From an uncultured Bacteroides sp. (GTDB lineage Bacteria > Bacteroidota > Bacteroidia > Bacteroidales > Bacteroidaceae), in NCBI GenBank assembly GCA_949288715.1, contig CASELH010000010.1, positions 1-64,000 on the forward strand: a DNA stretch of 64,000 nt, given 5' to 3'. The notes beneath the pieces were generated by a model. That model searched no databases. It was not told the DNA's origin and saw nothing but the letters and a program-made list of their open reading frames with translations. Numbering within the stretch: the stretch's first letter is position 1; every line of letters begins with the position of its first letter. Of the stretch, positions 2 through 60,638 are shown in pieces. Both the position numbers and the translations under genes were made by a program.

Positions 2-799
2 GGCACCATCAAGGAGGGCGACGTGGTCATCTTCTTCAACTACCGCAACGACCGCGCCAAGGAACTGACCATCGTGCTGACCCAGCAGGACATGCCGGAG
101 CAGGGCATGCACACCATCCCCGGCCTGCAATACTACTGCATGACGCCGTATGACGCTTCGTTCAAGGGCGTGCACATCATCTTTGACAAGGAGAACGTGG
201 CCGACACGTTGGGCGAATACCTCAGCAAGCAGGGCAAGAAGCAGCTGCACATCGCCGAGACGGAGAAGTATGCGCACGTCACCTTCTTCTTCAACGGCGG
301 ACGCGAGGCGCCCTTCGACGGAGAAGACCGCATCCTGGTGCCCTCGCCCAAGGTAGCCACCTACGACCTGAAGCCGGAGATGAGCGCCTACGAGGTAAAG
401 GACAAGCTGGTGGAAGCCATCAACACGCAGAAGTATGACTTTATCGTGGTGAACTACGCCAACGGAGACATGGTGGGTCACACAGGCGTGTACGAAGCCA
501 TCGAGAAGGCCGTGGTAGCCATCGACAACTGCGTGCGCGACACCGTAGAGGCAGCCAAGGCCAACGACTACGAGGTCATCATCATTGCCGACCACGGCAA
601 TGCCGACCATGCCCTCAACGCCGACGGCACGCCCAACACGGCCCACTCGCTCAACCCCGTGCCCTTTGTCTACGTCACCACGAACAAGGATGCCAAGGTG
701 GAGAACGGCGTACTGGCCGACGTGGCTCCCTCCATCCTGCACATCATGGGCCTGGCCCAGCCGGCCGACATGACGGGACATGATCTAATTAAAAATTGA
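2..799 (+). CDS. gpmI: 2,3-bisphosphoglycerate-independent phosphoglycerate mutase, 3' part
   Basis: C-terminal half of the cofactor-independent phosphoglycerate mutase, which interconverts 3- and 2-phosphoglycerate in glycolysis. The frame is open from the window edge, so the start lies upstream; about 265 residues of a usual ~500 are present. Family marks seen are the phosphatase-superfamily metal motif ADHGNAD and the late histidine motif TAHSLNPVP, plus an N-Y-R-N-D-R-A-K-E segment near the left edge typical of this family. The last residues (LIKN) and the stop codon are read from the left arm of the inverted-repeat element that begins at 786, so the native C-terminus may have been altered slightly by that insertion. 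Family identity is secure; cytoplasmic location is inferred from the family. Confidence 0.95.
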
Positions 800-1227
800 G
801 AATTGAGAATTAAGAAATGATAGACAGGGATAATGTTATCCATGTTAAAACGTATGCGTTTGCTATCCGTGTAGTGAACGCATATCGTTTTTTATGCGAT
901 TCCCAAAAAGAGTATGTCCTTTCTAAGCAAATGCTACGCAGCGGCACGGCTATTGGTGCCTTGGTTGCAGAAGCTCATCATGCCCAAAGCAGTGCGGATT
1001 TTCTAAATAAGATGAACATTGCATTGAAAGAAGCCAATGAAACGGCCTATTGGTTGTCTTTATTAAAAGATACAGGTTTTCTTGAAATGAAGTTGTATGA
1101 TTCAATGGCGCAAGATTGCAATGAGATAATAGCTTTGTTGGTGAGTATTGTTAAATCAATGAAGAATAGCTTGGGCAGATAGTTTCATGCATTTATTTTT
1201 TAATTTTCAATTTTTAATTCTCAATTA
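786..1227. mobile_element. IVS-like element: four-helix-bundle gene between 33-bp inverted repeats
   Basis: A 442-bp unit bounded by imperfect 33-bp inverted repeats, 786-818 and 1195-1227 (27 of 33 positions match; all six mismatches are transitions). The left arm carries the stop codon of gpmI and ends inside the ATG of the enclosed gene; the right arm stops six bases before the next start codon. A second pair of nearly the same arms, without a gene, lies at 59148-59252. The architecture resembles the intervening sequences of 23S rRNA, where a gene of this protein family sits in a hairpin, but here it is intergenic. Mobility is inferred. Confidence 0.6.
817..1182 (+). CDS. four-helix-bundle protein (23S rRNA intervening-sequence family)
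   Basis: A 121-residue, probably all-helical protein of the S23/IVP four-helix-bundle family (also related to Avd of diversity-generating retroelements). Recognised by the family pattern: an N-terminal A-x-R-V-V-N-A segment, the central L-R-S-G-T-A-I-G-A-L-V-A-E-A block and the later K-E-A-N-E-T-A-Y-W-L segment. Family members bind nucleic acid, but their cellular role is not established. The gene is clearly more AT-rich than gpmI and the DUF3109 gene on either side and sits exactly between the arms of the inverted-repeat element, with its ATG overlapping the left arm. I infer it is the cargo of, or the RNA/DNA-binding factor for, that element. No reverse transcriptase or transposase is near. 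Confidence 0.85.
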   Translation: MIDRDNVIHVKTYAFAIRVVNAYRFLCDSQKEYVLSKQMLRSGTAIGALVAEAHHAQSSADFLNKMNIALKEANETAYWLSLLKDTGFLEMKLYDSMAQDCNEIIALLVSIVKSMKNSLGR

Positions 1228-1232
1228 ATCAA

Positions 1233-1814
1233 ATGCTGCAAGTTGGTGATGTTGTCGTCAGTTTCGACGTGTTGAAAGAAAAATTCCTTTGCGACCTCAG
1301 GGCCTGCCACGGCGCCTGCTGCATCGAGGGCGATGCGGGTGCGCCCCTGGAGCTGGACGAGGTGGCGCAGATTGAAGAAGTGCTGCTCCTCATCTGGGAC
1401 GAGCTGTCGCCCCAGGCGCGGGCCGTCATAGACCGGCAGGGCGTGGCCTATGTGGACCGGGAGGGCGACTTGGTGACTTCCATCGTGGGTGGTAAGGACT
1501 GCGTGTTCACCTGTTACGACGAGCGGGGCTGCTGCTATTGCGCCATCGAGCGGGCGTGCCGCGAGGGGAAAACGAAGTTCCTGAAGCCCGTGTCGTGCCA
1601 CCTGTACCCCATCCGCGTGAAGGACTTCGGCGAGTTCAAGGGCGTGAACTACCACCGTTGGGACGTGTGCAAGGCGGCGGTCTTGCTGGGGCAGAAGGAG
1701 AATGTGCCCGTCTATAAATTCCTGCGCGAGCCGCTCATCCGCAAGTTCGGGGCAGAGTGGTATGCCGAGCTGGAGACAGCGGTGGAGGAACTGAAGAAGC
1801 AAAACTACCTTTAA
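1233..1814 (+). CDS. DUF3109 family cysteine-rich protein
   Basis: A 193-residue soluble protein of the DUF3109 family, related to the YkgJ-type metal-chelating cysteine cluster proteins. Cysteines are grouped as C-H-G-A-C-C near residues 26-31, then C..C..CCYC in the middle (C-Y-D-E-R-G-C-C-Y-C-A-I-E) and a C-H-L-Y-P-I-R motif, a pattern expected to bind zinc or an iron-sulphur cluster. The biochemical role is unknown. The chosen ATG lies 6 bases after the right arm of the inverted-repeat element, and the protein starts directly with the expected L-Q-V-G-D-V-V-V-S-F-D-V segment, so no N-terminal part appears lost. It was probably once directly downstream of gpmI. Confidence 0.85.
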   Translation: MLQVGDVVVSFDVLKEKFLCDLRACHGACCIEGDAGAPLELDEVAQIEEVLLLIWDELSPQARAVIDRQGVAYVDREGDLVTSIVGGKDCVFTCYDERGCCYCAIERACREGKTKFLKPVSCHLYPIRVKDFGEFKGVNYHRWDVCKAAVLLGQKENVPVYKFLREPLIRKFGAEWYAELETAVEELKKQNYL

Positions 1815-12760: not shown

Positions 12761-12798
12761 CTCGACTAATCTTTTTTAATTCGTTTATTTTTTATTTG

Positions 12799-12870
12799 TA
12801 GCCCCTGGGGGAATCGAACCCCCCTTTCAAGAATGAAAATCTTGCGTCCTAACCGATAGACGAAGGGGCC
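12799..12870 (-). tRNA. tRNA-Glu (anticodon TTC)
   Basis: A 72-nt cloverleaf on the minus strand: 7-bp acceptor (GGCCCCT with AGGGGCT, including one G-U pair), D arm, anticodon stem CAAGA/TCTTG with loop TTTTCAT, T arm of five G-C pairs around TTCGATT, discriminator A. CCA is not encoded. Confidence 0.95.
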
Positions 12871-44496: not shown

Positions 44497-44568
44497 GCCT
44501 TCATAGTTCAATGGATAGAACAACTCTCTCCTAAAGAGTAAATCCCAGTTCGATTCTGGGTGGAGGTA
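44497..44568 (+). tRNA. tRNA-Arg (anticodon CCT)
   Basis: A 72-nt cloverleaf: acceptor GCCTTCA with TGGAGGT (two G-U pairs), D arm with GTTCAATGGATAGAAC, anticodon stem ACTCT/AGAGT with loop CTCCTAA, T arm CCCAG-TTCGATT-CTGGG, discriminator A. CCA not encoded. Confidence 0.95.
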
Positions 44569-44583
44569 CTTCTCGTTTTCAGC

Positions 44584-57776: not shown

Positions 57777-59150
57777 ATGTTTGCCAAGGAAACCTACATC
57801 CAGCGCAGGGCCACGCTGAAGAAACAAGTTGGCTCGGGAGTGTTGCTGTTCCTGGGGAATGAGGAGCAGGGGTTGAACTATGAGGACAACACCTTCCGCT
57901 ACCGGCAGGATTCTACGTTTTTATACTACTTCGGGTTGTCGTTTGCCGGGCTGGCGGCCATTATCGACATCGACGAGGACCGGGAGATTATCTTCGGCGA
58001 CGAGCTGAGCATAGACTACATTGTGTGGATGGGTACCCAGCCCACGCTGCACGAGAAGAGCGAGCGGGTGGGCATCGGCGAGACTCGCCCCTATGCCGAC
58101 GTCATGGACTACCTGCACCGCGCCGTGCAGCGGGGGCAGACCATACACTACCTGCCGCCTTACCGTGCCGAGCACAAGCTGAAACTTATGGACTGGCTGG
58201 GACTTCCGCCTGCCCACCAGGAGGGCTCCGTGCCCTTTATTCGTGCCGTGGTGGCGCAGCGCAATCACAAGTCGGCCGAGGAAATAGAGGAGATAGAGAA
58301 GGCCTGCAACGTGACGGCCGACATGCACATTGCTGCCACGCGCTTCATCCGTCCCGGCATGTACGAGTATGAGGTGGTGGCCGAGATGAACTACGTGGCC
58401 GAGCGGAACAACTGCGAACTCTCTTTCGCCACCATTGCCACCATCAACGGGCAGACGCTGCACAACCACTACCACGGCAACAAGATACAGTCCGGCCAGC
58501 TGTTCCTCATAGATGCAGGGGCAGAAGTGCCTTCGGGCTATGCGGGCGACATGTCGTCCACCATCCCCGTCGACAAGACGTTTACCCCGCGCCAGCGTGC
58601 CGTGTACGAGGTGCAGAACGCCATGCACCTGGAGTCGGTCAAGGCACTGCGTCCGGGCATCCCCTACATGGATGTGTACGACCTCTCGGCCCGCGTCATG
58701 GTGGAGGGACTGAAGGAACTGGGACTGATGAAGGGCAATGCCGAGGATGCCGTGCGCGAGGGTGCCCACGCCTTGTTCTATCCCCACGGATTGGGGCACA
58801 TGATGGGCCTGGACGTGCACGACATGGAGAACCTGGGCGAGTTGTGGGTAGGCTACAACGGCCAGCCCAAGAGCACGCAGTTCGGCCGCAAGAGCCAGCG
58901 CCTGGCCATTCCGCTGGAGCCGGGCTTTGTGCACACCGTGGAGCCGGGCATTTACTTCATCCCCGAGCTGATAGACCTGTGGCGCGGGCAGAAGAAGTTC
59001 ACCGACTTCATTAACTACGACAAGGTGGAAAAGTACCGCCACTTTGGCGGCATCCGCAACGAGGAGGATTACCTGATTACCGAGACCGGTGCCCGCCGCC
59101 TGGGCAAGAAAATCCCCTTGACGCCCGACGAGGTGGAGGCGATGAGATAA
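57777..59150 (+). CDS. pepP: Xaa-Pro aminopeptidase (M24B family)
   Basis: A 457-residue metallopeptidase removing N-terminal residues that precede proline. N-terminal aminopeptidase-P domain (about 5-145) and C-terminal pita-bread catalytic domain. Metal ligands are visible in L-I-D-A-G-A-E-V and G-Y-A-G-D-M-S-S-T, H-G-L-G-H-M-M-G-L-D-V-H-D, V-E-P-G-I-Y-F and the late glutamate in G-G-I-R-N-E-E-D. No signal peptide, so cytoplasmic. Length normal for bacterial PepP. Its stop codon is the first base triplet of the inverted-repeat element at 59148-59252, the same arrangement as gpmI at the left end. Confidence 0.95.
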   Translation: MFAKETYIQRRATLKKQVGSGVLLFLGNEEQGLNYEDNTFRYRQDSTFLYYFGLSFAGLAAIIDIDEDREIIFGDELSIDYIVWMGTQPTLHEKSERVGIGETRPYADVMDYLHRAVQRGQTIHYLPPYRAEHKLKLMDWLGLPPAHQEGSVPFIRAVVAQRNHKSAEEIEEIEKACNVTADMHIAATRFIRPGMYEYEVVAEMNYVAERNNCELSFATIATINGQTLHNHYHGNKIQSGQLFLIDAGAEVPSGYAGDMSSTIPVDKTFTPRQRAVYEVQNAMHLESVKALRPGIPYMDVYDLSARVMVEGLKELGLMKGNAEDAVREGAHALFYPHGLGHMMGLDVHDMENLGELWVGYNGQPKSTQFGRKSQRLAIPLEPGFVHTVEPGIYFIPELIDLWRGQKKFTDFINYDKVEKYRHFGGIRNEEDYLITETGARRLGKKIPLTPDEVEAMR

Positions 59151-59252
59151 TTGAGAATTGAGAATTGAGAAATAAGAATAATTGGTTCCCCTTGGGAAAT
59201 AGTCCGTTATAGAGTATTTCTTAATTTTCAATTCTTAATTCTCAATTTTTCA
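59148..59252. mobile_element. gene-less inverted-repeat element (second copy of the IVS-like arms)
   Basis: Arms of about 31 bases, 59148-59179 (TAATTGAGAATTGAGAATTG...) and 59215-59250, match each other and the arms of 786-1227. They enclose only about 35 bases. The pepP stop codon lies in the left arm and the stop codon of the opposing kinase gene at the end of the right arm, so the element fills the whole intergenic space. Confidence 0.7.
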
Positions 59253-60638
59253 AGCGTGCAGCTCCAGCACGAAGCGTGCGCCCTTGCGGTAGGTGGCATC
59301 CAGCGTGAGGGTGCCGTTCATTTTGGTGGCTTCCAGCGAGCAGATGGGGAGGCCCAGGCCATCGCCTTCGGCCAGGTTCCGCACTTGGGCAAAGGGCTTG
59401 AAGAGGTCGGCCTGCTGCTCCTCGGGGATGCCACACCCGGTGTCGGTTACGATGAATTGCTGGGTGTGTGCTCCACGCTTTTTGAAGTCCAGCCATATTT
59501 TGCCGTCGGCGGGGGTGTGCAGGGCGGCGTTTTGCAGGAGGTGGGTCAGTATTTTCCCCACGTGTTCCCGGTTGATTTTAACGGACAGTTTGGGGGCGTT
59601 CACCAGGATAGCGACGTTTTCCTTGGTCTCTCCTTTCACTTTATCTGCAATGTCCTCGCAGAAAGTCAGGGCGTTGGCTTCTTCCAGCGCGTAGAGCTCG
59701 TCCAGCGAGTTCTCCAGTGCCGACATTTCCTCAATATGTGCCGCAAAGGTCTTCAGTGCCTGCACGGCGGGCAAAGTGGCGTCCAGCGTGTCGAGGGTGG
59801 GAGTCATTTGCGCGGAGATGTTCTGTATAAACTTCGTCTTCAGCGCATTGTGCTCGTTGGCGGTACGTATGGCCTTCTGCTGCTTGCGGTTTTTGGCCAG
59901 CAGGCGCAGCAGGGCTATGGCGCCCAGTACCAGTGCGGTGGCCAGCACGGTTGCCAGTATGCCCAGGCCGGCAATGATGTATTGGCGTGTTGCCAGCGAG
60001 CCGTCTTTTTCCTTGATGGTCTGCAGGCTGGCCTGATATTGCGTGTCCAGTTCGTCGTACTTCTGTTGTGCGGCCAGCTGCTGTATGGAGTCGTGGCGGC
60101 TGATGAAGGCACGGACGGCGGCATCGCCTTGCGCGTCCAGGCCGAAGGCATAGTAGTATCTTGTCTTGGTGCGTAGCAGGTCGGCGTCCAGCGAGTCGTT
60201 TTGCGCAGCCTCGGCCCAACCCTCCAGTTGTGCCAGCTGTGCTTTGGCCCGGGTGGGGGTGCGTTGCTTGGTGTAGATGAGCAGGCGCTCGCGTGTGATG
60301 GGGTAGCGCAGGGCAGGCATGGCTTTCCCGCTTTTCTGTTCGCCGTTGGCAACGGTTTGTTCTACGGAGGCGAGCAGTTCAAAGGCTTCCTGGTTGTAAT
60401 TCTCGCGGTGGTAGAGGGCGCTGGCCTGCACGCCGCAGGCCACGGCTTTGTCGTACTGCGTGCCCTGGGCGTATGCGTAGTAAGCCTGCAGGAACAGGTA
60501 GCGTGCCTTGGTGTAGTCTTTTTTGTTGAGGCACTCTTGTGCCTGTTGTCTCAGGTTGTCCCCGCTGTCTTGTGCGGCTGCGGGCAGAAAGCATTGGCAG
60601 ATTGCCATGCAAATCAACATACCGATAACTTTTTTCAT
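59250..60638 (-). CDS. sensor kinase-like protein without the phospho-acceptor histidine
   Basis: A 462-residue membrane protein. Signal peptide to about 22 (A-A-A-Q), TPR-like helical periplasmic domain (about 25-200), coiled segment, membrane helix (about 222-246), then a kinase core. The dimerisation/H-box region reads N-I-S-A276-Q-M-T-P-T-L where S-H-E-x-R-T-P-L is expected, so the histidine is alanine and the following Glu is Gln. The HATPase N box (L-L-Q-N-A-A-L-H-T), G1 (D-T-G-C-G-I-P-E-E), F (F-K-P-F) and G2 (G-D-G-L-G-L-P-I-C) boxes look intact. It could act as an ATP-binding signalling pseudokinase or partner another kinase. No response regulator is adjacent. Confidence 0.85.
   Translation of the reverse strand: MKKVIGMLICMAICQCFLPAAAQDSGDNLRQQAQECLNKKDYTKARYLFLQAYYAYAQGTQYDKAVACGVQASALYHRENYNQEAFELLASVEQTVANGEQKSGKAMPALRYPITRERLLIYTKQRTPTRAKAQLAQLEGWAEAAQNDSLDADLLRTKTRYYYAFGLDAQGDAAVRAFISRHDSIQQLAAQQKYDELDTQYQASLQTIKEKDGSLATRQYIIAGLGILATVLATALVLGAIALLRLLAKNRKQQKAIRTANEHNALKTKFIQNISAQMTPTLDTLDATLPAVQALKTFAAHIEEMSALENSLDELYALEEANALTFCEDIADKVKGETKENVAILVNAPKLSVKINREHVGKILTHLLQNAALHTPADGKIWLDFKKRGAHTQQFIVTDTGCGIPEEQQADLFKPFAQVRNLAEGDGLGLPICSLEATKMNGTLTLDATYRKGARFVLELHA

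Follow-up and report, generated by a model that had tools for sequence, protein, structure and literature searches.

An S23-family gene between inverted heptamer arrays, and matching gene-less palindromes, in a Bacteroides genome

We showed that an S23 (23S rRNA-IVP) gene of an uncultured Bacteroides sp. is enclosed by two inverted arrays of a tandemly repeated heptamer, and that the same heptamer forms the ends of gene-less palindromes dispersed in the same genome. The unit found beside the resident S23 gene matches the dispersed unit in most of the genomes examined, and it changes with the S23 lineage in several bacterial phyla. The S23 copy in the window (the whole stretch of 64,000 nucleotides that was analysed) is old, vertically inherited and under purifying selection, and the gene-less copies differ between sister species in presence and in unit. 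These observations suggest that S23 genes and heptamer repeats constitute a previously unrecognised gene-and-repeat system.

The S23 family is best known from ribosomal RNA inserts. The element at the beginning of the window lies between gpmI and a DUF3109 gene, outside any 23S rRNA gene, and is composed, together with its neighbours, as follows:

23..799, + strand: 3' part of gpmI (BPG-independent phosphoglycerate mutase), an ORF with PF01676 and PF06415 (iPGM_N); the gene start precedes the window
787..814, + strand: left array of 4 AATTRAR heptamers (arm as first described, 786-818)
817..1182, + strand: S23 / 23S rRNA-IVP four-helix-bundle gene, 121 aa; PF05635 E=5.6e-26, TIGR02436 E=1.3e-29
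1192..1226, - strand: right heptamer array, inverted, 5 units (arm as first described, 1195-1227)
1233..1814, + strand: DUF3109 gene, downstream neighbour of S23; PF11307 E=2.3e-80

The earlier note had described the arms as 33-bp inverted repeats which differ by transitions only, and our recount agrees (27 of 33 positions match, and the six mismatches are all A/G). The arms are more than plain 33-mers, however: AATTRAR is repeated in tandem in each of them, in opposite orientations on the two sides of a gene of 121 codons. The gpmI stop codon (TGA, 797-799) is supplied by the left array and the S23 start codon (ATG, 817) is found where the arm 786-818 ends on its inner side, both as previously stated; in several relatives TAA stands around the position of this TGA. 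The assignment of the gene to the 23S-IVS type is likewise sound, the profile scores being 91.3 bits for PF05635 (cut-off 33.8) and 102.6 for TIGR02436 (cut-off 24). The RNA of the element is predicted to fold into a long hairpin formed by its ends (z = -6.66). PADLOC gave no match, and PHROGs two weak ones (E 0.024 and 0.062). Promoter-like matches in the arms (2, compared with 0.3 in shuffles) were given no weight.

A second pair of arms, near the other end of the window, encloses no gene:

57777..59150, + strand: M24 aminopeptidase P-type gene; the left array overlaps with the end of this gene, at the stop codon; PF00557, PF05195
59149..59176, + strand: left array of the palindrome, 4 heptamers
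59177..59219, no strand assigned: core of the palindrome, without gene; RNA hairpin predicted
59220..59247, - strand: right heptamer array, inverted, 4 units
59250..60638, - strand: HATPase_c (histidine-kinase-type) gene in convergent orientation, with its stop codon at a distance of 3 bases from the right array; PF02518

This palindrome spans the interval from the M24 stop codon (59148-59150) to that of the convergent HATPase gene (59250-59252), which verifies its reported start on an upstream stop codon. Its arms (59149-59178 and 59218-59247) are 90% complementary and its predicted RNA fold is again strong (z = -7.85). With up to 3 mismatches allowed, a 23-mer is matched 6 times in the window, which is beyond chance (shuffle mean 0.00).

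The palindromes are by no means confined to the window. The pattern AATTRARAATTRARAATTRA occurs at 126 places in the window genome (G000), compared with 12 for the reversed control, and the stricter AATTGAR form at 59 places compared with 0. The genome contains one PF05635 gene, and the dispersed palindromes match the ends of this single resident gene, S23. The view of the earlier note that gene-bearing and gene-less members belong to one repeat family is upheld, and the arms do recur, in many copies in G000 and in other genomes searched. In a sample of 51 arrays, drawn from the window and 24 fetched stretches of the same genome, 43 consist of 4 or 5 whole units, as do 26 of 31 in a further count. 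Many gene-less elements read (AATTRAR)4-5 AAATA, core and inverted arm, and others consist of a single array; where a copy bears S23, its arm can close on the inner side with AAATG, the ATG of which is the gene start. The variant order GAG.GAG.AAA.GAG followed by AAATA recurs within the arms in G000, G229 and G212.

The arrays are located preferentially behind genes and in their sense. When ORFs of 80 aa or more were scored, a stop codon on the same strand was found within 12 bases of the beginning of the array, read in the AATTRAR sense, in 20 of 51 cases in G000 and in 19 of 31 in four other genomes, as opposed to 3 of 51 and 0 of 31 for the opposite sense (in total 39/82 and 3/82; 4.5% for random intergenic positions). 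At gathering thresholds, Rfam detected two tRNAs in the whole window and nothing else: tRNA-Glu(ttc) at 12798-12870 (-) and tRNA-Arg(cct) at 44497-44569 (+). The proposal of an element family that targets gene ends rather than rRNA is consequently borne out as regards position, though not as regards recent movement of S23.

The gene-less copies have cores of their own, some of which are common to several sites within one genome. The word GGCTGCGC, which was chosen after inspection, is present in the core of 12 of 39 elements of the genus (counted out of 63 distinct ones) across several arm units, compared with 0.03 in shuffled cores; it is not enriched in the window as a whole. The target duplication that the earlier note had proposed to look for was not consistently present in 30 array pairs, TA being found on both sides in 6 of them; as the outer dinucleotide, TA occurs in 36 of 88 arrays, more often than any other. 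A reading of the outer flanks as palindromic targets was rejected: complementarity is slightly above chance at 4 and 6 nt (p 0.017 and 0.027), less so at 8-10 nt (p 0.06 and 0.08), and shows no excess at 12 nt. Viral contigs yielded 7 stretches with the pattern, no confirmed S23 relative and no exact copy of a 26-base arm. Two unusual forms were noted: a left arm and core in tandem triplication followed by a single right arm (L175 1027-1260, contig C25 of the window genome), and an expanded arm of 13 heptamers opposite a normal arm of 5 units (L186 1129-1219).

In the genus, 43 PF05635 matches were identified in 30 of 60 genomes, and the arms were read at one S23 locus per genome (30 of the 43 matches). 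AATTGAR arms flank S23 on both sides in G000, G229, G205 and G212 and on one side in G207, and these genomes contain 59, 27, 33, 44 and 40 AATTGAR 20-mers, respectively. At least 27 exact 20-mers of this kind occur in all five genomes with an AATTGAR-armed S23 and in 3 of the 55 others (Fisher p about 1e-5, the species compared not being independent). The sorting into 5 and 55 is incomplete because one S23 locus per genome was read; G218, with AATTAAA arms and 5 hits, was placed among the 55. The three other genomes that reach 27 are G208 and G222 (74-76% complete), which are unit-rich with no S23 detected, and G254, which is unit-rich, yet its S23 has a different unit.

The strongest counter-example to the pairing of S23 and palindromes is genus g24. 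The AATTRAR pattern is present in 7 of its 11 sampled genomes (G161 262, G175 222 and G024 46 hits), and no PF05635 match was found in any of the 11. Palindromes therefore exist without a resident S23. The reversed control pattern is also common in a number of genomes from other genera. Several AATTGAR palindromes of this genus (L190-L194) have, as judged by eye, a common core resembling GTCGCRRGYTTACGCAGGT.

The association with heptamers extends well beyond the genus. In a scan of genome contigs, 71 S23 relatives were fetched and 68 analysed (3 were dropped for short flanks). An array of period 7 (score at least 12, within about 200 bases) lies beside S23 at 46 of the 68 loci, as compared with 21 of 138 for other genes in the same loci (Fisher p about 1e-13); each of the other periods from 4 to 12 was found beside S23 at 0-1 of the 68. 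Plasmid loci, 12 of which were picked from 28 records, have period-7 arrays in 10 cases, including Nostoc, Treponema, Bernardetia and Chlorohelix, and 27 of the 30 S23 loci fetched from the genus score at least 10 on one side or both. The best 30 PF05635 hits of the family comprise 8 with period 7 (score at least 12), 13 others with period 8-12 and 9 with none. Arms of 8-, 9- or 10-base units were observed in other S23 lineages (L051, L052, L055, L058, L059), and several 8- to 10-base units have a GGAGTTA or AGTTAAG core with a variable spacer.

Where arrays are present on both sides of S23 (61 of the 83 loci put in), 49 pairs are inverted and 11 direct, with one tie. The similarity of the units tracks that of the S23 proteins (Mantel r 0.472, null maximum 0.204; 83 kept of 109), and linkage alone may be the cause of this co-variation. 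Distal arrays in the same loci also fit the unit of the resident S23 better than the units of other S23 genes (5.42 vs 4.65, sd 0.13, null maximum 5.17 of 2000; 40 arrays, 25 loci).

The idea that the S23 copy of the window is a recent mobile insertion was not supported. The order gpmI, S23, DUF3109 was found at 9 of the 11 named loci tested, out of 71, and S23 evolves about like the neighbouring gene, with a pairwise omega of 0.03-0.11 for pairs with finite dS (synonymous sites being near saturation) and a pN/pS of 0.09-0.25 for the remaining pairs. Two of the nine conserved copies are damaged, one by an in-frame stop (L069) and the other being matched over residues 1-69 alone (L108). Among 30 DUF3109 loci fetched from the 60 genomes of the genus, gpmI lies upstream in 24, and S23 is present between the two genes in 3 of these (G000, G229, G212). 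At the 21 junctions that lack S23, the two genes are separated by 66-354 bp in 17 cases and by 763-1018 bp in 4, and a period-7 array above score 7 is absent from 20 of them. The exception is the sister species G216, where a different ORF of 217 aa occupies the place of S23 (L134 813-1494) beside a lone right arm of 4 AATTRAR units, whose outer joint is identical to that in the window. Because such an arm with the same joint stands beside another gene, S23 was probably lost from this junction in G216.

The gene-less copies differ between sister species. Of 10 junctions comparable between G216 and the window genome, two carry the same element (argG, and L166 with one array only) and six a different heptamer (M24-HATPase, frr-rsgA, ispD, obg, L182 and L171), namely AATGAAG and once AATTGAC; the remaining two are the lone arm at gpmI-DUF3109 and L186, whose fetched locus has no array (best score 5). 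Here frr and obg were identified by Pfam, and rsgA, ispD and argG are presumed from the look of their proteins. Element-free junctions exist in relatives, as the earlier note had expected of a mobile family: G215 and G231 lack the element at ispD, obg and L171. The frr-rsgA junction is occupied in all four species, and at M24-HATPase arrays are present in 3 of the 7 relatives whose locus contains both genes. The picture of one locus toggling between "loaded" and "empty" states is too simple, and is unsupported because the cores differ. At two junctions, orthologous elements have a common core in opposite orientation (frr-rsgA in G215 and G231, L280/L282; M24-HATPase in G229 and G217, L209/L213), as if the palindrome flips.

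We propose that these elements may form a two-component system resembling REPIN/RAYT, an explanation that we consider about equally likely to be right or wrong. One component would be the single, long-resident S23 gene between two inverted arrays of 4-5 heptamers, and the other the gene-less palindromes, which have the same units and short cores and are located at gene 3' ends in the sense of the upstream gene. The S23 protein, as a pentameric ring, would recognise the arms by binding an array with about one unit per subunit, and the bound array would most likely be single-stranded (a transcript or an ssDNA hairpin). Such recognition could allow S23 to act in trans on gene-less copies without a Y1 transposase, with cutting and joining performed by a host enzyme. 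Since a unit of 7 bp does not correspond to the helical repeat of duplex DNA, a single strand wound around the S23 ring, in the manner of TRAP, would be the more likely arrangement. A solved S23 relative (2rld) has 5 chains, and Xcc0516 has been described as a pentamer (PMC4990558). In REPIN/RAYT, too, palindromic non-coding copies are described as matching the sequence next to a single gene, and the tree of this gene is for the most part that of the species (PMC3116915); the RAYT protein, however, is a Y1 transposase, whereas S23 is a four-helix bundle and the ends in the window are tandem heptamers.

The alternative that survives best, though we judge it unlikely, is that the palindromes are host RNA hairpins of mRNA 3' ends, selected for termination or mRNA stability and showing little or no present movement, with S23 as a domesticated regulator or a passenger. 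The strong predicted hairpins, the sense arrays right behind stop codons and the vertical inheritance of S23 under purifying selection would all fit this, as would the intergenic DNA of other species at gpmI-DUF3109 and M24-HATPase, which by eye often contains a terminator-like hairpin. It is difficult to reconcile with the differences in presence and unit between sister species, the cores common to unrelated sites, and the 32 of 60 genomes of the genus without an AATTGAR hit; moreover, when the arms of both window elements were examined with a simple scan, no terminator-like site was found. We consider it improbable that the elements are ordinary MITEs of a DNA transposon, with S23 as cargo only and a conventional transposase lost or encoded elsewhere in the genome. 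Terminal inverted repeats, dispersed non-coding copies, the recurring arm order and element-free junctions are all compatible with MITEs, but the lack of a consistent target duplication in the 30 array pairs and the linkage of S23 with changing units over several phyla are not what they would lead one to expect, and tandem-heptamer ends are unlike the known ends of bacterial transposons.

Mobilisation by a reverse transcriptase or a Y1 transposase, either DGR-like or as in REPIN/RAYT itself, in which S23 would be an accessory comparable to Avd, appears very improbable. It draws on the layout shared with REPIN/RAYT (PMC3116915) and on the described likeness of PF05635 to Avd of diversity-generating retroelements in sequence and structure (PMC10053308). 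The window genome, however, a 93.9% complete draft, has no match to PF01797 (Y1) or PF00078 (RT), and both enzymes were rejected as partners, having no clear relation to palindrome counts in 23 genomes: of the 11 genomes rich in palindromes, 7 have Y1 matches and 8 RT matches, and of the 12 poor ones 5 and 8, respectively. Simple-sequence slippage combined with hot-spot gene conversion, in which case the link to S23 would be secondary, has an equally slight chance of being correct. The 13-unit array, the tandem triplication and the reported over-representation of heptamers among bacterial repeats (PMC4692102) speak for it, but inverted pairing, the narrow range of 4-5 units, the recurring variant order and the common cores are left unexplained.

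The nearest published link to the proposed two-component system appears to be in Coxiella, where heptameric GACAGAT repeats are described just upstream of the S23 ORF (PMC4990558). The 23S rRNA IVS of Coxiella and Leptospira, like the window element, contains an S23-family gene inside an inserted element, which is described as excised by RNase III (PMC4990558). The window element differs in its position between protein genes, its arrays at both ends and its many gene-less copies; moreover, the Coxiella ORF is reportedly decaying, whereas the window S23 is under purifying selection. The GGGAATC heptamers of Xanthomonas and GGGGAYT heptamers of Nostoc are also described as intergenic, near stop codons and in sense, and inverted pairs number 70 and 75 in the two Xanthomonas genomes reported (PMC4692102); their units are different, inverted pairs are few in Nostoc, and the cited part of that report mentions no S23 or four-helix gene. 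The TAACTGA heptamers of Beggiatoaceae, Cyanobacteria and Bacteroidetes similarly form intergenic tandem sets of scattered distribution (PMC4679880), but they are mostly direct and upstream of start codons, and S23 is not mentioned in the part cited.

More tentatively, and with considerable doubt, we suggest that S23/IVP proteins of several phyla might be ring-shaped readers of tandem 7-nt words, with a word for each lineage, and that the heptamers of Xanthomonas, Nostoc, Beggiatoaceae and Bacteroidota, together with the S23 intervening sequences of rRNA, might be one ancient class of palindromes that spreads without a known transposase type. If true, this would join two literatures, on rRNA intervening sequences and on bacterial heptamer repeats, which are kept separate in the papers cited here; among the matches listed in our search of the open-access literature, S23 genes tied to dispersed heptamer arrays were not found. 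PF05635 proteins are described as widespread, solved as pentamers and functionally uncharacterised (PMC11270868), and a lineage-specific 7-nt partner beside the gene provides a concrete candidate ligand for them.

Some S23 genes were also observed inside defence-type gene clusters (L239, an Anabaena cylindrica plasmid; L243, a Monoglobus plasmid; L236 and L241), where they lie between cas2 and cas1, between the genes of the restriction subunits S and R, or between a helicase and a DNA methyltransferase gene. The presence of 18 such genes in cas loci has been reported (PMC3936711).
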